Source: Thraustochytrium sp. TN22 (taxonomy: Eukaryota > Sar > Bigyra > Thraustochytrida > Thraustochytriidae). From it: DNA of 64,000 nt. Of this stretch, positions 11,388 to 53,977 are shown one piece after another. Numbering within the stretch: position 1 is the first letter of the stretch; every line of letters begins with the position of its first letter. The notes below the pieces were generated by a model. That model was not told where the DNA came from, did not search any database, and saw only the letters and a program-made list of their open reading frames with translations. Made by a program: the position numbers and the translations under genes. Location of the stretch: the NCBI GenBank assembly GCA_013306675.1, contig JABLUY010000009.1, positions 124,001 to 188,000 of the forward strand, read 5' to 3'.

Positions 11388-14300
11388 TCACGGGCTTGTC
11401 TTGGAGCGCTTGATGCCGTCGACAACGTCCTCGGTGGTCTGGTCGAGCGGGCGCTTGCGCTGCGGCGAGCCGGCACCGACGCTGGCGCTGGACAGCGCCG
11501 GCGAGGCCGTGGCAAAGGGCGAAGGCGCGTAAGGCGAAGGCGAGGGCGAGATGAAGGGCGAGGGCGAGGGCGAGGGCGAAGGCCCGGTCGGGCCGGCGTC
11601 GTGCGCACCCAGGAGTGGCGGCAGGCCGCACTGCGTGCGCAGCGGCGGGAAGCGCCGGAAGAGCTTCTCGTACTGGCGGCGCGTCCGCTCAAAGGCGGGC
11701 GAGCAATAGCGCTCGTTGATGGCGTCCCTGGAAGCTGGCGAGGCGAGCACCGTGGTGTGCTCGATGTCATTGGAGCTGCCGGACAGGCTCACGAGCGCAG
11801 CGCGGGCAAAGCGCAGCAGGTCAGACTGCGGTAGCGTGTGCATGGTGTACTCGAGCGTGAGCAGGCGCGTGAGGTGGCCGTGCGCCCAGGCCGTCTTGGC
11901 CGGGTCCATGGTCGCCGACGGCGCGGATCGCAGAACTTCGGGCAGGAAGAGGCCCTCGATGGCAGACTTGAGCAGCGTGGCCGGCAGCGGCGCGTGCGAG
12001 CCCGTGCCGGACACGTGGTGCGTGACGGCGCGCCCGCTGGCGGCCGCCGCCGCCGCACTCGTGTTCTGGCGCTGCGACTGAATGAAGAAGCTCGTGACCA
12101 GCGAGTGTAGAAACGCAGGGTGCTCGGCCACAATGGCGCCCTGCTTCTGCACCAGCTCCAGCAGCTCGGGCAGGAGCGCCACGTCGCGGTGACAGACGCG
12201 CTGACAAAAGAAGAGCAGCATCGCGTTGCGCGTGAACCAGTCCGTCGGCAGCGCCTCGGCCAGGCAAGGGTCGACCAGACCGCGCTCCAGGCGCTGCTGC
12301 TCGAGGTGCTCCTGCGCCGCCGCCGTGGACGCCTTGAGCCGGAACTCGACCGCCTCCGACAGTAGCATGGCCAGCGCTGGCAGCGTCTTGCGCTCTGTGG
12401 TCTGGTCGAGCACGTGCACGATTACATCGCCCTTCTCGGCCTCCAGCACGAACTTGTGCGCCAGCGCGCTCACCTGCAGGAGCCAAGCCACGTTACGGGT
12501 CGTCTCCGAGTCGCGCGGTAGCTGCTCGCGCCGCACCACGTCGTCGCCAATCAGGTAGCACAGCACGTTCGTCAGCGCGTTCACCGCGAAGCCGGACGCC
12601 AAAATCATGGCGGCGTCGCTGACCGACCGCCGCAGCCGGCCCGTCTGCTCCAGGTTCGACAGCTGCGTCTGCGTCTCCTGTCGCTCCTTGCGCCGCCGCT
12701 CCGCGTCCTGCCGCTCGCGCTTGCGACGATCCTCCTGCGCCAGCGTCGCCTTGGACTTGCCGTCAGCCTCGCCGCTCTGCGCGTCCTCCATTGCCTCGTC
12801 CTCGTCCTCCTCGTCCTCGGATGACTTGCGCTTGGCGGCGGCGGGCGACGACTTGCTTGCGGCCTCGGCCGCCGCAGCCGCCGCCGTCGCAGCAGCCGTC
12901 GCAGCAGCCGCCTCGCCGCCCGGCCGGCTCGCGCGCTCGCGCTCGCGCGCCAGGCGCGCCGCGTCCTCAGCGCGCCGCGCCTCGTCCTGCCGGCGCTGCT
13001 CCTGCGCGCGCTGCCGCATGATGGCGTTCTGCAGCTTCTGCATGGCCTGGTTCAAGTACTGATCCGCCTTCACCTTCATGATGTTGCGCGCCGTCATGGA
13101 GACCTTGTGCGTGGGCCCGTTGAAGGCGATTGCGTTATCCGCGATCAGGTGCAGGTCTGCGCGCATGTCGTCGAGCGTCTCGTACTCACGCCGGCGGATT
13201 TTGTCCTCGATTGTGCTCAAATCCATCGGGTGTGAGATCTTGGCCTCGTATGCGCGCTTCAGCGCCGGGTACACCTCCACTACGGGGTTGTGGAACATGC
13301 GGTGCTTGTCCAGGTTTCGCACCTTGCGCCAGGCCTCCAGCAGCACCGAGTGCATGTCCACGGTCTTCTCGCCGCGCCCATGCGCAGCGTTCGCAGTCGC
13401 CACCTTGACGGGCCGTGGGCCCAGGCCGCCCTGGCCATTTGCAAAGAGCGAGCTCGCAGATGTGAAAATGTCCGCCGTCGACGCAAAGGCCGATGCCAGC
13501 CCGGGCTTGAGCCTGCCCGACACCAGCTTCACCAGCTCTGCCACCACCGTGCGCTGCAGGTTCGCTGTCTTCATGTCCAGCGCGGCGCGCGCGCTCAACG
13601 TGCAGATCTGCTTCACGTACGCGTCCAGGTGCCATGCGAAGTCGTGGCATGGCTCCGTCGCCAGCACCGTCTGTGCTGAAATGTCGTGCAGCCCCATGAG
13701 CAGGTCTGCGCGCAGCGCGCACAGCCGCGGGTTGCCGGTCTCCGCAAATTGATCCCGCACGCGGTCCGTCAGGAACCGGTACAGCTTCGCCGACGACCCC
13801 ACGGCGCGGATCAGCTCCTGCAGCGGCTGACTCTTCTGCCGCCGCTTGTGCGGCGGCGGGAAGTTCACGTCCGGAAACATCTCGTCCGACCACGTGGTTG
13901 AGGCCGAGTCGTGCAAGAAGCGCTCCACGATCGGGTCCACATGCGTCAAAAAGGAGTCTGGGTACTCCTCCCAGAGCCGCTGCCGCGTCTGCCGCGGCAG
14001 CTTCTCCAGCGCCGCGCCGTCCAGCTGGCTGAGCTGCTCCAGCACCGAGGCTGACGGGTTCGGCAGCGCGCCGAGGATCTTGAGCGGGATCTCCTCCAGC
14101 GTAGGGTGCGCCAGCAGGGGCAGCGTCTCCTCCAGCAGCGCCGCTAGCTGCGCCTTGGTCGCGCTGCGCACCTGCGCCAGCACCTTGGCCTTGAGGTTCT
14201 GGAACACGCCGCGCAGCACCTCGTGCCGCCGCTGGCCCAGCGCCTCCAGCAGCCACAGCGCCGGCTCGCACCCCTGCAAGCCGCCTCCGTGCGCCTCCTG

Positions 14301-14495
14301 CAGCGCATCCACGAACGCCAGAGGGTCCTCCGCGCCGCACAGCCCGCGCCGCACGTACGCCTGCGACACGAGCAGGCCGTCGGCCGCGCGCCCGCCATCC
14401 TGCCCGCCGCCAGCGCCGCCGCCGCCGCCAGCGCCAGCGCCGCCGCCAGCGCCCGCCGCCGCGGCCGCGCCGCCGTTGCCCGCGTCCGCCGCCAT
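11388..14495 (-). CDS. NELFB: NELF-B (COBRA1) homologue with an inserted bromodomain
   Basis: 1035-aa protein related to negative elongation factor B, a subunit of the NELF complex that pauses RNA polymerase II after initiation. The ATG at 14495 precedes a Gly/Ala-rich leader; upstream codons look non-coding. The COBRA1 region starts near residue 50, and its hallmark segment LRADLLMGLHDISA followed by EPCHDFAWHLDA (about 255-290) matches NELF-B (LRAELLMSLHD...DPCHKFTWCLDA). A later block, NALTNVLCYL...LPRDSETTRNVAWLL (about 640-680), matches the NELF-B segment around QETLPRDS. Between them, about residues 385-485, lies a bromodomain with PVVEVYPALK, HPMDLSTIEDKI and IADNAIAFNGP, including the acetyl-lysine-binding Asn. 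An acidic then basic coiled segment (about 545-620) and a Ser/Pro-rich C-terminal tail follow. Single exon. Confidence 0.88.
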   Translation of the reverse strand: MAADAGNGGAAAAAGAGGGAGAGGGGGAGGGQDGGRAADGLLVSQAYVRRGLCGAEDPLAFVDALQEAHGGGLQGCEPALWLLEALGQRRHEVLRGVFQNLKAKVLAQVRSATKAQLAALLEETLPLLAHPTLEEIPLKILGALPNPSASVLEQLSQLDGAALEKLPRQTRQRLWEEYPDSFLTHVDPIVERFLHDSASTTWSDEMFPDVNFPPPHKRRQKSQPLQELIRAVGSSAKLYRFLTDRVRDQFAETGNPRLCALRADLLMGLHDISAQTVLATEPCHDFAWHLDAYVKQICTLSARAALDMKTANLQRTVVAELVKLVSGRLKPGLASAFASTADIFTSASSLFANGQGGLGPRPVKVATANAAHGRGEKTVDMHSVLLEAWRKVRNLDKHRMFHNPVVEVYPALKRAYEAKISHPMDLSTIEDKIRRREYETLDDMRADLHLIADNAIAFNGPTHKVSMTARNIMKVKADQYLNQAMQKLQNAIMRQRAQEQRRQDEARRAEDAARLARERERASRPGGEAAAATAAATAAAAAAEAASKSSPAAAKRKSSEDEEDEDEAMEDAQSGEADGKSKATLAQEDRRKRERQDAERRRKERQETQTQLSNLEQTGRLRRSVSDAAMILASGFAVNALTNVLCYLIGDDVVRREQLPRDSETTRNVAWLLQVSALAHKFVLEAEKGDVIVHVLDQTTERKTLPALAMLLSEAVEFRLKASTAAAQEHLEQQRLERGLVDPCLAEALPTDWFTRNAMLLFFCQRVCHRDVALLPELLELVQKQGAIVAEHPAFLHSLVTSFFIQSQRQNTSAAAAAASGRAVTHHVSGTGSHAPLPATLLKSAIEGLFLPEVLRSAPSATMDPAKTAWAHGHLTRLLTLEYTMHTLPQSDLLRFARAALVSLSGSSNDIEHTTVLASPASRDAINERYCSPAFERTRRQYEKLFRRFPPLRTQCGLPPLLGAHDAGPTGPSPSPSPSPFISPSPSPYAPSPFATASPALSSASVGAGSPQRKRPLDQTTEDVVDGIKRSKTSP

Positions 14496-15236
14496 GCTCG
14501 CTCGCGCGCGCCAGCCAGCGGCCGCGCCGCGCCGCCGCGCTCGCCGCGCTTGGAGCTTTGGGCGCCAGGCGTGCTCGACTTGGTTGAAGGCAAGGCAAGG
14601 ACGCCAACGACGCCGCCGACTCGGACAGGGACAGCGCGAAGGAGCTGCAGCTGCAGCAGCTGCAGCTGCCGAGGAGGCCCGGGCTGCAGCCTGGCGCGCG
14701 CCAGAAGCGCGGAGCCGCCGGAACGCGGGGACGAAGATGCGCGCGCAGGCGAGACCGCAGGACCTGGGCAAATTCGACGAAGATCGAGCGAGGACTTGGA
14801 GCACGAGGCGATGATGAGGCACGCCGAAACGAGCATCTCCACATTGCGGGCAAGAAGCGCGGAGCGTCGAGCCAAGGGAATGGATTGGGAGGAGAGCTGA
14901 TCTAAGGCTTTTTGCGGCGGGAAGCAGAGATAGGCCGAGGTTGGGGCCAACAAAGACAGCTACGTAGCTACAAGTAGGCCGAGGCCGGATCACGCGAAGA
15001 ACCTGGACTACTGGAGCTACTCTTGTATATCGAAGAGCCAGAGGACGGAGGGCATGGAGGACAAGAATTTCAGCGCACAGTGATAATCAGAGTTACAGCG
15101 ATCTTGACGAATGTGCGAGGCTCGAACTGCGTCAAGAACGAGAACTGCACCTCCCGCGCGACCAGATGCGCTCGAGCCCCTCCCCTCCACCTTCACACAC
15201 TCGATCGCATCGCAAAGACTGCGTTACTGATTGCCA
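14496..15236. other. Intergenic region between NELF-B and the pseudokinase gene
   Basis: Upstream region of NELF-B and 3' flank of the minus-strand pseudokinase gene. It contains a GCAGCTGCAG-rich palindromic stretch near 14642-14670. The open frame that continues upstream of the NELF-B ATG lacks recognisable domains and is probably chance. From 14900 to 15236 composition drops in GC and I see no gene. Confidence 0.6.
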
Positions 15237-18200
15237 CTACCTTGCGTTGAGGACCCCGTGCTCACCCGGCCACATGGACGAGGCGCCAGCGAGGAGGCGC
15301 AGTGCTTCTTCCGGCTCAAATTCCTGGGGGAACTGTATGTGAGCCGCGTAAACCTGTGGAATGGCGCCCAGACGAAGCAGAGAGAGCCTTGCCGCGGGGT
15401 CTTCGTAGATGAGAACTGAAATAGTGCGGCAAGCAACCACCTGCATGTCCATGTCAGGAAACGAGCGCATGGCCCGGAGAATGTCAGCTCCGGCATCGAG
15501 TTCGTGGCCAAAAACTGCCTGACTTGGCCCGTATGCCTCAAGGAGAAGGCCTAGCACAGAGATCGCGCAGAATTGGACTTCTGAGTCTCCTGGGTGGGTG
15601 CGCATTGCTTCCAGAATGTCAACGCCAACATGAAGGTCTTGCACGAGGTCCTCCCAGTCATAGCTTTCCTCGTTTGATAGGATCGCGCAAATGGCTGAAC
15701 AAGCCGCGCCCTGAACTCCGGCATCGCCCCGATGCGCCCGCATCGCCTCGAGGATCTCGATGGTGGCCTGAAGGCTTTGTCCAGATGTGCCTTGCTGCTG
15801 CTCGTGGCGCCCAAGGCAGCGCAGCACACGACATGCCCGATCTTGCAGCGCTGCGACGTCTCGATGCGCCCTCATGACCTGGAGGACTTCTCCTCCTGCG
15901 TCGAGCTCTTCGAAAAGAATCCCGTGGGTTGCCTCGTCTGTGACGAAGTTGAGCAAAACTGTGCAGGCGAAGAACAGGAACCTGGGGCTCTCCCGATATG
16001 CACGCATGGCCTCGATGATAACTAAGCCAGCACGCATCTCGTTCACCAAGATCTCAGCATAGTGGAATGCTGCGGAGGTTGGATCTGTCAGGCGCGAGAG
16101 TGCCTTACACGCGGGACCTAGTACCTGAATGTCCCCAACGTGCGTACGCATGGCTTTCAGAATCTGAAAACTGATCTGATAGTCCTGAGTGAGCATTGCC
16201 ACGTTGCTCGCGCAGCACGCGAGCGAATGCAGCGCAAAGCAAGCGTGTTGTTGCACCGCGAGCTTGTTTTGGTGTGTCCGCATGGCCTCAAGAACTTCAA
16301 CGTCCGCCCGAAGGCCCTGCACGAGCCTCTCACTCGTGCTGACGTTGGTGGCGAACTTGTGAAGCGCGGCGCACGCAAGGAATTGTACCTCGTAGTCGTC
16401 CCGATGTCCTCGCATGGCCTGGAGAATATCCGCTCCAGCATCGAGCTCCAGAGCGAGAATGTCCACGTGGCGTTCACTGTGTGCGAGCTTTGCCAGAAGC
16501 CAACACGCGCGTTGCTGCACCGTGGAAACAGTACGATGCGCTCGCATAGCCTCGAGAATATCGACGCCGGCGTGACCTTCCTGGACAAGGCTATCCTGGA
16601 CGTTTGCGTTGTTTATCATTCTCATGAGCGCCGCCAATGCAGCCTCCTGCAAGGCAGCGTCGCCTCGATGGTCTCGCATGGCCTGGAGCACTTCCATGCC
16701 TGCCTGAAGCTCTTCCGCGAGGATCTCCGCATTGCGCTGGACAGTCGCGAGACTCGCCAAAGCCTTGCATACGCATAATTGGACACGTCGCGTGCCCCGA
16801 TGGTTTCGCATGGCCTCGAGCAAATCAACACCAGCATGAAGCTCCTGTACGAGGCGCTCTGCCGAGCTGTCGTTCGCCCCCGGCGCTTTCGTGGCGAGCA
16901 TATGAAGCAGGGTACAGGCCGCGTATTGCAAAGCCGCATCGCCTCGGTACGCTCGCATGGCCTGAAGCACGTCGATGGCAGCTTGGGTCTCCTGGTGCTT
17001 CAGAATGTCCACGTTGCGGCCGTCGAGCGCGAGACGATATAGGAGCCCGCACGCGCCACGCTGTATCAAAAGGTTGCTCTGGTTCTCCCGCATGCTGCTG
17101 AGAACCTCAACGAAGACGTCGAGTTCTTGCGTAAGTCTCTCACTCTCGCTCGAACCGGCCAGAACGAAAAAGAGCATTCTGAAGGCTTCATATTGCACCT
17201 TTCCGTTGCTCCGGTGCGCGCGAATGGCATCGAGAACCTCCGAGCAGGCGACGGCCCTCTCGTCCGAAGTCAGTCTTGATCGCAGGCCAACCAGACAGAG
17301 GAAGCTGCAGCCAACGCTTTGAACGGTCGGGTTGCTTCGATGCGCGTACATTGCGCTGCATACCAGCGCGCCGAGCCTTTGGCGCTGGACTGAGGCGACA
17401 ACATGTGCACGGCCTCGAAAGGCTTGCGCAGACGCGGCCAATACCGGAAGCGAGGCAGCCACCACATCCGCGTCCTCTTGATGCTCCATCACAAGCGTAG
17501 CGCAGATGGAGACCGCGCCCCGGGAAAGGGCCTCCCATCGGGGCGCATTGCGACTAGGTCCTGGGACAGATGTGTGAGCCTCGAGCAGCTTTCCTAGCGC
17601 ATCGAGCGTCTGGAGCTGATCGTCGCGGTCGTGCGGCTGCAGCAGGTGGCGGAGGCAGGCTTGCACTGCTGCGCAGGCGGCGCCGCCTGCAGAAGACGAG
17701 CCAGAGCTCGCGGCGTACGCCCGCCGGTTTCCCAGCCGGAGGCTGGGCGCCGAGTGCCGAGTCTTGCCGCGGGCAACAAGATGCCGTAGAGCGGCTGGCA
17801 CGGACCAGCGACCCTGTCGGGCCCGACCGCGAGGAGCGAAGCACTGCAGAGCTTGTGATGCCGACGGCCGGCAGCGCGGATGATGCTCCCAGCACGCTTC
17901 CATCAGAGCGAGTAGCCATGGCGTGTTCTCAACGTCTGCCGCGGTATTCTCCGGTCGGTCGCCAGACAACACCCCTGCCTCCGTGAAATGCGTGCCTGCG
18001 AAGGGTTCGGAGCCGTGGAAGACAGCCCACAGGATCATTCCGTAGGAGTACATATCTGCCCGTGTGGTCCAGCGCGAGGGGCGCTGCAGTGCCTCGGGTG
18101 CCGCGTACACGCGCGAGTCCGCGACCCCGGACGCAGCATCGGGCAAGGACGCGTCTCCGAGCAGGAGATTTCCCAACTTCGCATGACGAAAGTCGCGGGC

Positions 18201-19265
18201 CAGAAATATGCTGGACGGCTGCAGATTGCTGTGGACTACGCCCTGCTTGTGCAGATAGTCCAGGCCGCGGGCGACACACCGTAGGATTGCCTCCTTGGCC
18301 GCAAGGCCGAGCTCGGCCCATCCATTCCTCAAAAGGTCAGACAGGGTCGAGTCTGCGCGATCCGTGACTAGTACGAGGCTCCCTTCGAGAAGTCGGGTTC
18401 CGAGTAGACGCACTACGTTGGGGTGCACAAGACGCTTGTGCAGCTCGGCGGCCAGGATGAGCGGAGCACCCTCCTCGCGGGGCCGGTCCCCCTCTGTGCG
18501 CTGGACCACCACTGGAAAGCTGTCACCGTTCGGCCGATGGAGCAGGCCCGTGACGAACTGGCCAAAGCTGCCGCTGAAGAGGATTTCGATAGGCTCAGAC
18601 AGAGCGATCTCGTCATCCGGAAGCGTTGCGGCATGGGCGTCGCGCGCGCGGCGCAGGTCCGCCACGAGCGCATCGCGTGCGCTTGCCGCCGCATCAACAA
18701 GCGCCAGGTCCTCGTCGAGCTCCGGGCTCTCCTCGGGTGCCGTGCCCTCGTCTAGCGTCACCTCTTTCTCGAGCGCCGCAATCACGAGGTCTACTTGATC
18801 AGCTGCGGTGGCGAGCTGGCCTAGGTCCAGAAGCTGATGAAGGACTTGCTCAAGCTTCTGACGCGGGTCCACGCCGTCGTCCTTGCTGTCGATGGCGTCT
18901 CCCTCCGTGGCGTCCTCTACCTGGCTCCTTGTGAGCTTGCAGAGGCTCCTTTGAGATCTGAGCTCATCCGTCGCATGGGTGAGTTTAGCACGCACGCCCT
19001 TCGCGTCGAGAAGCAGCAATGCGTTCGCCGCGAGTCCGCCTCCGCGAAAGAGGTGCTGGCGCACGAGCCCCAGCGCCTGCCTTATGCCCTCCTCCACGAT
19101 GAGCGCGTCCTCCAGCTCGATGCCAGGCTCCTCGAGGTCGTCGGCGAGCTGGGCGAGCTCGGCGACCAGCGCCGCGGCCTCGCGTCCGCAGCACGGCAGC
19201 TCCGCGTTCTCCAAGTCGGCGGCGAAGGCACGCGCGAGCCGCGCGACGAGCCGCGCGTCATCCAT
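15237..19265 (-). CDS. Pseudokinase with helical N-terminus and about 15 ARM-like repeats
   Basis: 1342-aa protein, started at the first ATG (19265). Residues 1-190 are helical and resemble the four-helix bundle plus brace that precedes MLKL-type kinases; this match is by pattern only. Residues about 220-490 are a tyrosine-kinase-like fold: glycine loop SGSFGQFVTG, YAAPEAL, RADMYSYGMILW and a final CRPSASQAL. It lacks all three catalytic signatures: the VAIK Lys is Gln (PVVVQ), HRD is HSN (VVHSNLQPSS, near 346), and DFG is replaced by NLL (KLGNLLLG, near 363). It should be catalytically dead. Residues about 510-1320 contain about 15 ARM/HEAT-like repeats with the signature EAMRAHR....VQ..AC..L..LA. 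A scaffold or signalling role is likely. Single exon. Confidence 0.82.
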   Translation of the reverse strand: MDDARLVARLARAFAADLENAELPCCGREAAALVAELAQLADDLEEPGIELEDALIVEEGIRQALGLVRQHLFRGGGLAANALLLLDAKGVRAKLTHATDELRSQRSLCKLTRSQVEDATEGDAIDSKDDGVDPRQKLEQVLHQLLDLGQLATAADQVDLVIAALEKEVTLDEGTAPEESPELDEDLALVDAAASARDALVADLRRARDAHAATLPDDEIALSEPIEILFSGSFGQFVTGLLHRPNGDSFPVVVQRTEGDRPREEGAPLILAAELHKRLVHPNVVRLLGTRLLEGSLVLVTDRADSTLSDLLRNGWAELGLAAKEAILRCVARGLDYLHKQGVVHSNLQPSSIFLARDFRHAKLGNLLLGDASLPDAASGVADSRVYAAPEALQRPSRWTTRADMYSYGMILWAVFHGSEPFAGTHFTEAGVLSGDRPENTAADVENTPWLLALMEACWEHHPRCRPSASQALQCFAPRGRARQGRWSVPAALRHLVARGKTRHSAPSLRLGNRRAYAASSGSSSAGGAACAAVQACLRHLLQPHDRDDQLQTLDALGKLLEAHTSVPGPSRNAPRWEALSRGAVSICATLVMEHQEDADVVAASLPVLAASAQAFRGRAHVVASVQRQRLGALVCSAMYAHRSNPTVQSVGCSFLCLVGLRSRLTSDERAVACSEVLDAIRAHRSNGKVQYEAFRMLFFVLAGSSESERLTQELDVFVEVLSSMRENQSNLLIQRGACGLLYRLALDGRNVDILKHQETQAAIDVLQAMRAYRGDAALQYAACTLLHMLATKAPGANDSSAERLVQELHAGVDLLEAMRNHRGTRRVQLCVCKALASLATVQRNAEILAEELQAGMEVLQAMRDHRGDAALQEAALAALMRMINNANVQDSLVQEGHAGVDILEAMRAHRTVSTVQQRACWLLAKLAHSERHVDILALELDAGADILQAMRGHRDDYEVQFLACAALHKFATNVSTSERLVQGLRADVEVLEAMRTHQNKLAVQQHACFALHSLACCASNVAMLTQDYQISFQILKAMRTHVGDIQVLGPACKALSRLTDPTSAAFHYAEILVNEMRAGLVIIEAMRAYRESPRFLFFACTVLLNFVTDEATHGILFEELDAGGEVLQVMRAHRDVAALQDRACRVLRCLGRHEQQQGTSGQSLQATIEILEAMRAHRGDAGVQGAACSAICAILSNEESYDWEDLVQDLHVGVDILEAMRTHPGDSEVQFCAISVLGLLLEAYGPSQAVFGHELDAGADILRAMRSFPDMDMQVVACRTISVLIYEDPAARLSLLRLGAIPQVYAAHIQFPQEFEPEEALRLLAGASSMWPGEHGVLNAR

Positions 19266-19902
19266 CGCGCTGGCCGGGGCAAGGACCCTCCGAGTCGCGC
19301 GCTCGCGTTCGTCTTCGAGGCACGCAGCCGCCAGCGATCTACGCACTCATCAAGCCATGGCCACGCAAGCCACTGGCATGCTTCGCTGCAGGTTCGCACG
19401 CGCCGCGACGAGTGCTGATCTGCCGTGACTGACTGCGGGAGGCTCGCTCGCGCGCGGCCGAGCGCTCGCGTGCCTCTGGCCACCGTACGGCGGCAGTGGT
19501 GGCGCACGCGTTGGCGATGAGGCTTTGGTGATGGCATGATGATGCTTTGGCATGATGATGCTTTGGCATGATGATGCTTTGGCATGATGATGCTCTGGCA
19601 TGATGATGCTTTGGCATAATGATGCGTTGACATGATGCTTCGAAACGACAAGAGCGGCCCAGAGCGGCTTTGACAAAACAAAAGGTGCAACGTGGCAGTG
19701 TCAGACAGAATGAGCTAGTGCATGTTGATAACGGCTGGCTAGCTAGCTCGCGGACGCGAAGGTAGGCAAACAGGAGAGAGGCGTACCAGCTTTAGGGAAA
19801 TGTGCCCAGGTATGCGCAGCAGGCTCACGATCACTCTGAGACATGTGAGTGAGCAAGTCAACGAGCCGCGCGAGCGCAAGCATGGGCGGCGCAGCAGATG
19901 GC
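19266..19902. other. Intergenic region with a 16-bp minisatellite
   Basis: Separates two minus-strand genes. Apart from the 16-bp tandem repeat, I see no gene; the segment 19266-19500 should hold the promoter of the pseudokinase gene, and 19650-19902 the 3' flank of the cNMP-RGS gene. Confidence 0.7.
19535..19640. repeat. 16-bp tandem repeat (CATGATGATGCTTTGG)
   Basis: Four to five near-perfect copies of catgatgatgctttgg followed by two decayed copies (taatgatgcgttgacat). On the minus strand it reads as repeated Ser-Ile-Ile-Met-Pro-Lys-His, which makes spurious open frames. Confidence 0.92.
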
Positions 19903-47834: not shown

Positions 47835-48155
47835 TTTCTTCTTCTGTTGCATTGCCAAGCTTTGGCGATCTGCGGCCCACGGCGTTTGTGGAGCGCAGTG
47901 GTCCCCCGGGTTTCCATCCATCGCCAACTGCCAGTGGAGGCCAAGCAGAATCCTAACGACCACCGCGGCGCCTATCCTCGCAAGCGCGGCCGCAGCGAGC
48001 GAGCGCGCAGCAGGCGCAGCAGGCGCAGGGATCGAGCGCGCGGAGGCGAGCTGTCTGCGGGCTACGGCGTGGCGCTGCGCTGCGCAGCGAGTCGCTTCCC
48101 GCTCTGACAGTGAGTATCCTTGGCGGCGTACCTCGTCATCAGGCAAGGCGCCAAG

Positions 48156-49691
48156 ATGCCGACCGCCTTCGAAAAGTACGTGCGCAAGGAGATCAAGGAA
48201 ATGCTCAAGAATACTGGGTATGGCGACTTCCAAGGCCTTCTTGAGCACCACGACCGGGAGGAGGCGAGAGAGGTTTACCAGATCCTTGAGGATGGCGCCA
48301 TTCATTCATGGGAGCAGAAGCAGAGGAAGCTCCGCGCCACGCCACAGGACTGCGCGAGTCTGGAACAGGCGGTGAGGCTCGCCAAGAGAAAGTACGAGTC
48401 CATCTCCGTCCTCGAGACGGCGAAGTTCTCGGACGATGGCCTCAACCAGCTTGCGCAGGCCATCACCCAGGGGGGCGTCCTCCGCGAGCTCACGCTGGAC
48501 CGTCACGAGGGTCTGGCAGATGACGAAATCGCCGGGCTCGTCGATGCGGTGCAGGCCCAGAACGCCATGACGAAGCTGCACGTCCATCTTCCCGCGCTCG
48601 GCCCGCGCTCGATCCAAGCCCTGTGCAAGGCCGTCCAGGAGATGCCCAAGCTCGAGGACCTGTCCGTACGCCTGCAGCCCACACGCGAGGTCATCGACGA
48701 CAAGGATCCCGCCGCGTCCGCCTTGCCCGCTGCCCTGTGCGACGCGCTGCAGAAGAACTCGACGCTGCGCAAGCTCGCGATCGGTGGCGTTGCGACCCAT
48801 GACGGGGCTGCAAAGATGCTGGCAGACGTGGTCGCGCAAAAGTCAGCGCTCGTCTCGCTCCACCTCACACGTAACCACATCACTGACAGCATCGGCAGCG
48901 TCTTGATCGAGGCGCTGCTTCACCAAGATGGCCACCTCACTCACCTGGACCTCTCGAACAACCCGCTCGGCCTGACCACCGCCGAGGCTCTTGGCAAGTG
49001 CCTGGCCACAAACAAGAAGCTGATCTCGCTCACTCTGGGCTGGCCCGGCGAGCGTGCGGCGCAGGCTTCCATCAGCACCAAGGGGGGCGAGGCGCTCGCC
49101 GTCGGACTCGAGCAGAACGATACACTCGAGGAGCTCATTCTGACCGACTACGACATTGGAGACGAGGTCGCCGAAGCGCTCGCGAAGATGCTCCGCACCA
49201 ACAAGACCTTGCGCCTCATCAACCTTAACAACAACCCTTCCATCACTGCGCGTGGCTCGCGCGCCCTGGCGGAGGCGCTCGAGGTGAACGAGTCACTCGA
49301 GACGCTCCAGTTGATCGGCTGCCCTGCCGTCGACGGCAAGGCGCTCCTCGCCGGTGTGAAGCAAAACGCGACGCTGCGCAAGCTCGACGTCGATGCCAAG
49401 GTGCCGGCTTTTGACGAGCTCGCTAAGGAACTGAAGCGCATGCACGAGGTCGAGGAAGCGCGTCTCGATCTCGAGGATGGCAAGCAATACGTCACCAGGT
49501 GGATTCAGGACCTCTCACCTCGGAAGCGGGCCCGCCTTTCTCGTCGCCTTGACGAAACGTGGGCCAAGTACGCCACGGTGGAGGCCCCTGCCGACGATCA
49601 GCGTGACAAGAAGACCAGGCGTCTCCAGATGCTCAAGGCTGAGTGGGAAGCGTACAAGCAGCAATCCTTCATCCTTGAGGCTGCCCAGTAG
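48156..49691 (+). CDS. Leucine-rich repeat protein A (RanGAP/NLRC3-type LRRs, family tail)
   Basis: 511-aa intronless LRR protein. The first ATG in frame is at 48156 (MPTAFEKYVRKEIKEMLKNT). Residues 1-90 are charged and helical. LRRs run from about 95 to 410, of the 28-residue ribonuclease-inhibitor/NLRC3 type, for example LTHLDLSNNPLGLTTAEALG, LEELILTDYDIGDEVAEALA and LRLINLNNNPSITARGSRAL. The tail (about 415-511) is coiled and contains YVTRWIQDL, LDETWAKYA, QRDKKTRRLQ and WEAYKQQS. LRR C shares both the repeat order and this tail (including a conserved GCP..DGK.L...KQNATL block), so they are paralogues. No signal peptide, membrane segment or kinase is seen; the protein is probably cytosolic. 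Function unknown. Confidence 0.85.
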   Translation: MPTAFEKYVRKEIKEMLKNTGYGDFQGLLEHHDREEAREVYQILEDGAIHSWEQKQRKLRATPQDCASLEQAVRLAKRKYESISVLETAKFSDDGLNQLAQAITQGGVLRELTLDRHEGLADDEIAGLVDAVQAQNAMTKLHVHLPALGPRSIQALCKAVQEMPKLEDLSVRLQPTREVIDDKDPAASALPAALCDALQKNSTLRKLAIGGVATHDGAAKMLADVVAQKSALVSLHLTRNHITDSIGSVLIEALLHQDGHLTHLDLSNNPLGLTTAEALGKCLATNKKLISLTLGWPGERAAQASISTKGGEALAVGLEQNDTLEELILTDYDIGDEVAEALAKMLRTNKTLRLINLNNNPSITARGSRALAEALEVNESLETLQLIGCPAVDGKALLAGVKQNATLRKLDVDAKVPAFDELAKELKRMHEVEEARLDLEDGKQYVTRWIQDLSPRKRARLSRRLDETWAKYATVEAPADDQRDKKTRRLQMLKAEWEAYKQQSFILEAAQ

Positions 49692-50442: not shown

Positions 50443-51643
50443 ATGCCTGGCTTCAGCGACCTCGGCGAGGCCCTCGCGGCCATCAACAACGGCGAGCTCC
50501 AGGTCACGTGCGTTGGCTGCAACGGAGGACGCAGTGCACCGGTCACGACGACTCACGTTTGATTTGCAGAATCTGGGCTTCGTGCTTTCTCGGCGACGCT
50601 GGCGTGGCCCAGGTTGCAGAGGCCGTCAAGGACAACGCCACGCTTCAGACCCTGGAGGTGACTTCCAGCAGGATTGGCGTGGCCGGTGCGCACGACCTCG
50701 CCAGGGCGCTTGAGACAAACGCTGCGTTGGCGAGGCTTTTGTGAGTGCGCGTTCTCCGAGCATGCTCTGCGCTGGCCAATGCTTTGCTGACCCGGTGGAA
50801 CGGCAGTCTCCAGAACAACAGCATTGGCGTCCCTGGCGCCCGAGCACTGGCAGAAGCACTCAAAGCCAACGCCACGCTTGTCCAGCTGGAGTGAGTCATG
50901 ACGAGTCGGGACGTCTTCCTCAGAGTGTCTGGCTAATTTTTCACGCAGTCTCGCAGAGAATGGCATCGGCGCCGCCGGCGCGAGCGCTCTCGCCGTGGCG
51001 CTTGAGAGCAACGCGACGCTCACGTCGCTTGGGTGAGTCAGAAACTGACGGGAGATTCTTGCGTGTGCGAGCTGACATGTGCTCGGCGCAAAGTCTCGGC
51101 CAGAACGGCCTCGGCGATGCCGGCGCCCAAGCCCTGGCAGGGGCGTTGACGACCAACACCACGCTCGCGCAGCTCAAGTGAGTTGTTTGAGCTAGACGAA
51201 ACGGGGCGCTGCTCTGGTGCTGACAGTCGCTCCATTCAATAGCCTGTGGTGGAACGAAATCGGCAACGCCGGGGCGCAAGCGCTGGCGGAGATGCTCGCT
51301 CAGAACACGAGCTTGGCCCTTCTCGAGTGAGTCGTTAGAGATGAGCGGGCAAGAGACGTTCACGCAGCGGAACTGACGCAGCCTGCCCCGCCTTAGCCTA
51401 GCCTACAATGACGCTATCGGGAACGATGGCGCAGCAGCTCTGGCCGGCGCCTTGGACTCCAATCTCACGCTTACCTCACTCTCGTACGTCAACGCCCTTG
51501 ACGTGGTCGCAGTCGAGTCGCCACGTCCACTCACATGGGTCACGATCCACAGTCTACTCAGCGGCCAAAGCAGTATCACGGACTCGACCGTCCTGTCCAG
51601 GGTGGAAGCGGCTTTGGCGCGCAACCGGTTGTCCCGAGGATGA
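50443..51643 (+). CDS. LRR protein B with one-repeat-per-exon structure
   Basis: 272-aa LRR protein from seven exons: 50443-50507, 50570-50740, 50807-50890, 50949-51032, 51094-51177, 51243-51326 and 51397-51643. All six introns are 58-70 bp, GT-AG (five GTGAGT donors, one GTGCGT), and all are phase 2. Exons 3-6 are each exactly 84 nt and each encode one 28-residue LRR; exon 2 (171 nt) holds two. The spliced frame closes at 819 nt. The repeats follow L.L..N.IG..GA.ALA.AL..N.TL..L, for example LQNNSIGVPGARALAEALKA, LAENGIGAAGASALAVALES and LGQNGLGDAGAQALAGALTT. These are NLRC3/RanGAP-type repeats. The last exon ends with a non-LRR tail of about 50 residues unlike that of LRR A and C. There is no signal peptide or effector domain. 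Ligand and role are unknown. Confidence 0.9.
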
Positions 51644-52388: not shown

Positions 52389-53977
52389 ATGGGGCTGTTC
52401 TATGTTGGCGTCGGCGGTCTCGGCGGCGTCAACCTTCGCGACAAGGACGCGATGAGGGTGATGCTGGAGCTGGAGCGCGAACAGGAGGCAATGGAGGCGC
52501 AACAGGCGCAACAGGCGCAGGCCTTGGCGGATAGAGAACTCCGGACGGCGAAGTGCTACCGCTCCTTCGGCGGCGCGATCAAGGCCCTGGGCAGGGGCTA
52601 TCAAGTTGTCAGGTACGTGGACTCGACGCAGTGTCGCGATCCGACGCCGGCCGGCGGCACTGACATGTTCTGTCAACTTTGCGCCAAAACAACAGCATCG
52701 CGAGCGGCGTCGAGCGGATCCTCGCTCACGAGCCAGGCAGGCTTGCAGAGGCCCTGGCCGGCTCCTCGACCATCCGCAAGCTCATCGTCCGCCGCAACAA
52801 CCTCAACACGGATCAGGCGATGGAGATCATGCACGCGGTTCGTACGCACCCGAGCCTGACAATCTTCTTCCTGAACCTGCACAAGATGAGCGTGGGCCTC
52901 GCCAACGCTTTTTACGCCCTGATCGGGGCAAACAAGAACCTGACGACGCTCAGTCTGTCGACGGACTACGTGGCTGAAGGCGAGACGGTCTTTAGGCGCA
53001 AGGGGCTTGCCAAGGCGCTGGAGCAGAACGCGAGGCTTTCTGAGCTCCGCATCAACTCCATCAGAGTTGGGGCGTCGTGTGTCAGAGCCCTGGCGGACCA
53101 CCTCAAGACTGGCGGTCCTCTGCGTGTTCTCACGCTGTCCCAATGTCACCTCGGGGATGACGCTGCCATTCAGATCATACAGTCACAGGTGCAGGACGGC
53201 AAGCTGGTAAGCCTGAACCTGAGTGGTAACCCGGTCGGCCCTGCCACCGGAATCGCCCTTGCCAAGCTGCTGGAGACCAACACGGCGCTTCGTGTGCTGC
53301 GGCTCGGCCCGCACGGCAACAGCCCAAACCCGGCGATTGGGTCGGAGGGCGCCAAGGCGTTGGCAGCCAGTCTCGAGCAGAACGCCACGCTCCAGAAGCT
53401 GTTCTTGGGCGGTAACGATATCGATGACGAGGGTATCGAGGCGCTGGCGAAGATGCTCAAGGTGAACAAGACGCTGCGCGTCCTCTCCCTGTACTCGAAC
53501 AAGATCACGTCACGTGGGTCCGAGGCGCTGGCCGAGGCGCTCAAGGCGAACGAAACGCTGACCGAGCTGGACCTGCTGGGCTGCCCCACAATCGACGGCA
53601 AGGTGCTGGTGGAGGGACTCAAACAGAATGCGACGCTCACCGGGATCTATCTCGACAGGACAGTGTCGGGGTACGATCTGGTCCAGGCGGAGCTGGCGCT
53701 CTTCGCGCAGCTCGAGTTGGCGCGCAGGGCCGTGCAGGAAGGCCGCCGGTACGTGAAGGACTGGCTGCGCGACATGTCCAGCTCCTCGCTTGACGAGTAC
53801 GCCGATGAGCTCGCGGAGGTGTGGAAGACGGCGAAGCGCCCCTGGCCGGACGACGACACGCGCGAGAAGAAGGTCATCCTTGTAGAGGAGGCCAACGCTC
53901 AGTTCGAGGCCTACAAGGCTGAGTCGCATGTGCTCAAGAAGATCCAATCTCGAGTGCCCAATGCGTCTTCAGCTTGA
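52389..53977 (+). CDS. Leucine-rich repeat protein C, two exons
   Basis: 501-aa paralogue of LRR A. Exon 1 is 52389-52612, the intron 52613-52695 (83 bp, GTACGT...aacAG) is phase 2, and exon 2 is 52696-53977; the joined frame is 1506 nt. Exon 1 (starting MGLFYVGVGGLGGVNLRDKD, context gccATGG) is Gly-rich, then helical with Glu/Gln repeats. LRRs cover about 95-385, for example LTTLSLSTDYVAEGETVFRR, LVSLNLSGNPVGPATGIALA, LQKLFLGGNDIDDEGIEALA and LRVLSLYSNKITSRGSEALA. The block GCPTIDGKVLVEGLKQNATL and the helical tail with YVKDWLRDM, ELAEVWKTA, TREKKVILV and FEAYKAES are shared with LRR A. Cytosolic by lack of signal or membrane segments; role unknown. Confidence 0.87.
52613..52695 (+). other. 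Phase-2 intron in LRR gene C
   Basis: GTACGT donor and aacAG acceptor; removal keeps the frame. It has the same phase as every intron of LRR gene B. Confidence 0.8.

Follow-up and report, generated by a model that had tools for sequence, protein, structure and literature searches.

In the LRR-ROCO genes of brown algae, each leucine-rich repeat (LRR) lies on its own phase-2 exon, with a unit of 72 bp (PMC11378527). Human NLRP3 carries its LRRs on exons of 171 bp that hold two repeats (PMC6642158), and the HNWD/NWD genes of Podospora, which function in non-self recognition, exchange repeats within and between loci (PMC1805685). TPR-ROCO-TIR proteins are named in Chondrus crispus, and no more than four ROCO copies are reported in diatoms, oomycetes and Schizochytrium aggregatum (PMC11378527). 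Here we describe an LRR gene of Thraustochytrium sp. TN22, located at positions 50443 to 51643 of a 64,000 nt stretch of DNA that we call the window (assembly GCA_013306675.1, contig JABLUY010000009.1, positions 124,001 to 188,000, forward strand), and compare it with its relatives elsewhere in the 37.9-Mb genome.

We consider it fairly probable that the window gene consists of eight exons and encodes only LRRs, of the ribonuclease-inhibitor (RI) type, and that it belongs to an exon-modular class that includes recognition receptors with exchanged repeat cassettes. In this class every repeat would occupy its own 84 or 87 nt phase-2 exon, with an intron that interrupts the beta-strand motif LxL in the codon between its two leucines. 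The class would take in many LRR-ROC-COR-TIR and some LRR-TIR genes, the products of which may be intracellular recognition receptors, in which the LRR arc would bind ligand, ROC-COR would serve as a GTPase switch and TIR would signal. In some of these putative receptors an exon and its intron would form a cassette subject to tandem duplication and to exchange between loci, the near-identical introns supplying the homology for unequal crossing-over or gene conversion, and selection would retain amino-acid changes at exposed LRR positions, leading to new surfaces, in the manner described for the Podospora HNWD repeats (PMC1805685). The phase-2 symmetry means that a cassette can be gained, lost or swapped without a change of frame, and because the split codon lies between two leucines, a swap can alter the residue at that place.

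Exon–intron structure of the window gene

A first-pass annotation of the window had proposed a seven-exon model that closes in frame and contains four LRR exons of exactly 84 nt. We searched all GT/GC..AG chains with introns of 40–139 nt and the exon lengths of that annotation, starting from the ATG at 50443, and found exactly one in-frame chain from 50443 to 51643 (forward strand). With LRRs located by a position matrix, this chain consists of exon 1 (50443–50507, 65 nt, with the predicted start ATG), exon 2 (50570–50740, 171 nt, two LRRs), exons 3 to 6 (50807–50890, 50949–51032, 51094–51177 and 51243–51326, each of 84 nt with one LRR) and a last exon at 51397–51643. The predicted introns between them are intron 1 (50508–50569, 62 nt, GTGCGT..CAG), intron 2 (50741–50806, 66 nt, GTGAGT..CAG), intron 3 (50891–50948, 58 nt, GTGAGT..CAG), intron 4 (51033–51093, 61 nt, GTGAGT..AAG), intron 5 (51178–51242, 65 nt, GTGAGT..TAG) and intron 6 (51327–51396, 70 nt, GTGAGT..TAG). 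The exon-modular design proposed there is confirmed: the four 84 nt LRR exons, the phase-2 position of all six junctions and the donors (GTGAGT five times, GTGCGT once) are as had been described. Exons 1 to 6 stand as drawn, but the 247 nt last exon probably holds a seventh intron.

The candidate donor GTACGT is found at 51484, directly after an 87 nt LRR unit of 29 aa (51397–51483), and is the commonest donor of the 84/87 nt LRR exon class (55/160 introns). The stretch that begins there is 69 nt long and in frame, and ends at 51552 with CTCAC ahead of CACAG. Removal of 51484–51552 fuses the last window LRR to SLLSGQSSITDSTVLSRVEAALARNRLSRG. This sequence is similar to that of the terminal LRR exon in ROCO relatives (NNITERSILARIEAALARNRANP in C99, for example), and the putative exon 8 is 78% identical over 51 nt to locus L058 (E 0.001). 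As the last LRR is joined in this way to a terminal exon like that of relatives, the window gene is likely to have seven introns. When the frame is read beyond the final unit, 5/22 arrays (C121, C46, C116, C230 and C428) give 'YV' and then a stop, and the window donor GTACGT likewise encodes 'YV'. Retention of intron 7, which would leave the frame intact, is the less likely alternative. We have replaced the 247 nt exon by exon 7 (51397–51483, 87 nt, one LRR), intron 7 (51484–51552, 69 nt, GTACGT..CTCAC..CAG) and exon 8 (51553–51643, 91 nt, a terminal half-LRR and stop, drawn from its resemblance to relatives). The gene would most likely comprise eight exons of 65, 171, 84, 84, 84, 84, 87 and 91 nt, encoding 249 codons plus a stop, with every junction in phase 2; its splicing is predicted from sequence.

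Recurrence of the exon class across the genome

The exon design of the window gene recurs in the genome. Scanning of fetched loci with a position matrix derived from the repeats located, on 29 contigs, 164 LRR exons that are bounded by AG and GT and exactly 84 nt (109 exons) or 87 nt (55 exons) long, counted by position and with later loci included; an earlier count gave 153 exons distinct in sequence. At least 132 LRR matches were found in the genome by protein search, for which 150/208 candidates were scored, and two designs coexist: contiguous repeats in long frames, and arrays of one LRR per exon.

Pair statistics were compiled for the first 51 loci and the window, which contained 153 split LRR pairs (120–330 nt apart) and 133 contiguous pairs. 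At the site homologous to that of the window donors, a GT was present in 105/153 split pairs versus 2/133 contiguous pairs, an AG at the acceptor position in 131/153 versus 7/133, and both together in 100/153 versus 0/133, shares that are not genome-wide rates because the loci were chosen for LRR matches, 20 of them for split-looking matches. Of 126 introns, 99 follow a unit of 84 nt and 25 a unit of 87 nt, with one each after 81 and 90 nt. The motif CT[AG]AC occurs 12–45 nt ahead of the acceptor in 92 of these 126 introns, compared with 7.4 in shuffled sequences, and in 122/160 introns when all loci are included (9.15 in shuffles). The exon–intron pattern is not a product of chance.

Association with ROC, COR and TIR domains

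Many of the exon-modular arrays lead into signalling domains. A single frame of 864 aa after the C86 array contains Roc, COR-A and TIR_2; the arrays of C188 and C265 lead to Roc and COR-A, that of C215 to Roc, and two arrays of C407 to TIR_2. Genome-wide, we found 46 COR-A matches (42 above the cut-off) and 123 TIR_2 matches (114 above the cut-off, tallied by eye). All of the COR and TIR matches were included in a co-location tally, together with 43/108 Roc and 97/132 LRR matches, so that the tallies of the latter two are lower bounds: Roc lies upstream in at least 40/46 COR loci and an LRR match in at least 10/46, and TIR lies downstream in 36/46. A further 14 readable ROCO loci were fetched without a prior LRR match (C135 and C148 were left out of the upstream reading, the contig end being too near). 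Ten of the 14 have at least two complete 84/87 nt LRR exons upstream, and C17 has one LRR unit in the 865 nt upstream.

Three other arrangements were observed among these domain matches. At G000 C160:1247-4627, TIR_2 is matched four times with the same score, at intervals of 1043 nt and with one TGA in each match, and further TIR matches adjoin. A ROC-COR-TIR cluster lies at G000 C288:21993-35417, where frames of 1303 and 1149 aa hold two TIR matches apiece. At G000 C215:26266-33357, an exon-modular LRR array is positioned on the minus strand between two divergent ROCO genes.

Cassette duplication and sharing among the relatives

Tandem exon–intron units are present in the relatives, as assembled: in C86, five identical exons recur every 285 nt, C11 has eight units at seven steps of 315 nt, and C321 has three near-identical units. 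In a trio of close ROCO-TIR paralogues, the best-scoring stretch of which is 88–98% identical, the number of LRR units is two, five and four; one of the four units in the C288 paralogue is without AG.

Cassettes are also shared between loci. C86 and C321 have a common intron that is 98.2% identical over 228 nt, yet their ROC sequences are only 70% identical at the nucleotide level over 289 aligned sites. At the amino-acid level the two ROC sequences are 40% identical over 110 residues, variable linker included, and agree in 33/48 residues (69%) over the conserved first 48 codons. The ROC of C53 is closer to that of C86 (84% of nucleotides, 40/48 amino acids), yet the best intron identity between these two loci is only 79.3%. 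The near-identity of the C86 and C321 introns despite diverged ROC sequences indicates that cassettes have moved, or have been homogenised, between loci without involvement of the rest of the gene, possibly by unequal crossing-over or gene conversion.

The differences between similar exons are concentrated at a few codons. Twenty-four pairs of 87 nt exons, 1–12 nt apart, which involve nine exons from three contigs and are not independent, contain 94 nonsynonymous and 14 synonymous codon differences. These differences fall at codons 2, 3, 4, 5, 8 and 27, and at codons 26 and 28 with synonymous changes only; codons 9–25 show none. We then compared exons with introns in 30 cassette pairs with introns at least 95% identical, drawn from 13 cassettes of C86, C321 and C11. 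Introns differed at 183/6490 sites and exons at 358/2610, with 165 nonsynonymous and 28 synonymous codon differences. Omission of the divergent cassette C321:3728 left 136/4733 intron sites and 167/1914 exon sites, with 81 nonsynonymous and 12 synonymous differences. Pairs between loci differed at 135/3845 intron and 264/1566 exon sites (112 nonsynonymous, 23 synonymous), or at 99/2773 and 139/1131 (61 nonsynonymous, 10 synonymous) without C321:3728.

Across ten distinct exons, codon 2 encodes six different residues and codon 3 seven; these exons were picked for their conserved core, and the constancy of residues 9–24 among them is therefore partly by choice. Codons 2 and 3 correspond to variable x positions of LxLxxNxIGx, which, judging from LRR structures, would be situated at or close to the ligand-facing surface. 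We infer that amino-acid changes at exposed LRR positions may have been kept by selection.

Status of the window gene and alternative explanations

The window protein has LRR_6 as its sole Pfam domain (1.8e-24), and its repeats of 28/29 aa are of the ribonuclease-inhibitor kind. A ribonuclease inhibitor is among its best PDB matches, and the sequence matches considered (best 60 of 83) include ribonuclease inhibitors, NLRPs and the flagellar LRR proteins LRRC34 and DRC5. A Pfam scan of the window protein found no NACHT or NB-ARC beside the LRRs (NACHT was not searched genome-wide); the genome has two NB-ARC matches, neither on the window gene's contig. Exon turnover and exposed-residue variation are present in the 87 nt ROCO-TIR relatives and were not seen in the window gene. 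The earlier proposal of repeat turnover in a recognition-type repertoire is consequently supported for the ROC-COR-TIR relatives, by tandem units, common cassettes, exon number and codon variation, but not for the window gene.

A number of observations weigh against the interpretation that we favour. The 84 nt exons of the window gene are 52–67% identical to each other, and its introns resemble one another only as much as shuffled sequences do (mean identity 0.70 versus 0.69 shuffled); intron similarity was rejected as a sign of recent duplication. No near-identical copy of the window cassettes was found among the loci examined, and genome-wide domain searches gave no Roc, COR-A or TIR match beside the window gene, which is LRR-only and has no signalling domain. 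The 84 nt class, to which four of the window exons belong, has only three pairs of exons that differ at 12 nt or fewer; their codon differences, 6 nonsynonymous and 9 synonymous, show no nonsynonymous excess. In the relatives, the contrast between exon and intron differences is weak for within-locus pairs once C321:3728 is omitted (introns 37/1960, exons 28/783), and in 3/30 pairs, all within-locus, the introns differ and the exons are identical. Because the 30 cassette pairs are drawn from 13 cassettes on three contigs, they lack independence; their intron identities omit gaps, some pairs having ~41 nt of indels between them. In three ROCO loci of the C288 cluster, among the 14 that were read upstream, no LRR was found. 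Finally, many LRR genes have contiguous LRRs in one frame, among them the ROC-COR-TIR genes of C402, C398 and C217, so that exon modularity is unnecessary for the ROC-COR-TIR architecture.

Given the diverged introns and exons, and the lack of ROC, COR or TIR beside it, the window gene is probably an old and presently quiet LRR-only member of the class. Its product may be an LRR protein that binds a ligand, serves as a decoy or acts as a regulator, or it may have a function outside recognition.

These observations are relevant to several other explanations. The chance-level similarity of the window introns, the divergence of the exons and the lack of nonsynonymous excess in the 84 nt class would fit an inherited exon pattern without a recognition role, in which an early LRR exon and its intron were multiplied and most arrays have remained static; the window gene would then encode an ordinary LRR protein of the cytoplasm or flagellum, and the range of its PDB matches, which extends from NLRPs to ribonuclease inhibitors, LRRC34 and DRC5, agrees with this. 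We regard this explanation as possible but rather unlikely, in view of the tandem and between-locus copying of cassettes and the exon-biased nonsynonymous change in the ROCO-TIR relatives, and of the fusion of these arrays to TIR and ROC-COR. Truncation of a former LRR-ROC-COR-TIR receptor would fit the resemblance of the terminal exon of the window gene to the LRR-to-ROC joining exon of relatives (the L058 match described above). This seems distinctly unlikely, as the frame is intact to the stop and Roc, COR-A and TIR matches are lacking nearby.

Introner-like gain, in which each repeat independently received an intron at the same place and exon and intron were not multiplied together, would account for window introns that are overall no more similar than shuffled ones and for the coexistence of intronless and intron-split LRR genes. 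The joint duplication of exon and intron at C86, C11 and C321 makes such gain very improbable, and a common intron body, as expected of a mobile element, was not seen in the window gene. In a further reading, the cassettes of this single-celled, non-photosynthetic stramenopile could be exchanged between LRR-ROC-COR-TIR loci by a programmed or dedicated process, possibly somatic, in which near-identical introns act as recombination arms, change is focused on exposed codons, and LRR-only genes such as the window gene form a cassette reservoir. We mention this as a speculative idea and consider it improbable. If an exon-modular class that includes recognition receptors is the correct reading, exon-modular LRR receptors would be extended beyond brown algae and animals and would be coupled to ROC-COR and TIR. 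The relatives would constitute a compact gene class whose introns record the copying of repeat cassettes, with a bearing on how unicellular eukaryotes diversify recognition.

Neighbouring genes and host

The window gene sits between two intronless LRR genes on the same strand, with frames of 523 aa (48120–49691) and 432 aa (52679–53977). As to the nearly intronless genome assumed in the first-pass annotation, a Pfam scan covered seven large frames of the window that are not LRR genes: it found domains in four, each contained in one frame, and none in the other three. A COBRA1 match and a bromodomain share a 1201-aa frame at 11388–14993 on the minus strand, and a protein kinase and an ARM-repeat stretch matching LRRK2 share a 1369-aa frame at 15237–19346, also on the minus strand. 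Two FabA domains lie in one 1719-aa frame, presumably a subunit of the polyunsaturated fatty acid synthase typical of thraustochytrids. A photosynthetic host was considered and rejected, with no Chloroa_b-bind match.

Comparison with known systems

A survey of the literature by title and abstract start (thraustochytrid LRRs and introns, ROCO-TIR, labyrinthulomycete immunity) found no account of this gene family among the papers listed, which does not establish its absence from print. The likeness to Ectocarpus drawn in the first-pass annotation holds for the phase of the exons but not for their length, the unit being 72 bp in brown algae and 84/87 nt, of RI type, here (PMC11378527). One LRR per phase-2 exon is found in the window gene and its relatives alike, as in brown-algal LRR-ROCO genes, with which the family also shares an expanded ROCO set and, in the 87 nt ROCO-TIR relatives, apparently variation at concave-face positions; LRR-only sequences with the same exons are mentioned there too (PMC11378527). 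A ROC domain follows the LRRs in the relatives and is lacking in the window gene, unlike brown-algal LRR-ROCO (PMC11378527). Brown-algal ROCOs are reported to have the architecture LRR-ROC-COR only, whereas TIR follows 36/46 COR loci here (PMC11378527). ROC-COR followed by TIR is shared with the TPR-ROCO-TIR of Chondrus crispus, in which TPR takes the place of the exon-modular LRRs (PMC11378527).

The further likeness to vertebrate NLR genes fits in exon size, as the 171 bp exon of NLRP3, with two LRRs, has the size of window exon 2 (PMC6642158). RI-type LRRs and frame-preserving exons with a border at a fixed place of the beta-sheet are common to both (PMC6642158). The Podospora HNWD genes appear similar in their repeat exchange and in the diversification of a few binding-face codons, but have WD40 repeats and NACHT in place of LRR exons and ROC-COR-TIR, and it is only here that introns travel with the repeat (PMC1805685). 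An HNWD-like pattern, of homogenised repeats with few diversifying codons, is seen in three relatives, C86, C321 and C11, of one genome.

NACHT is the switch of human NLRs and ROC-COR that of the relatives described here; the window gene lacks a switch. What chiefly sets the family apart from the brown-algal LRR-ROCO genes and the human NLR exons is its coupling to TIR and its number of ROCO loci.
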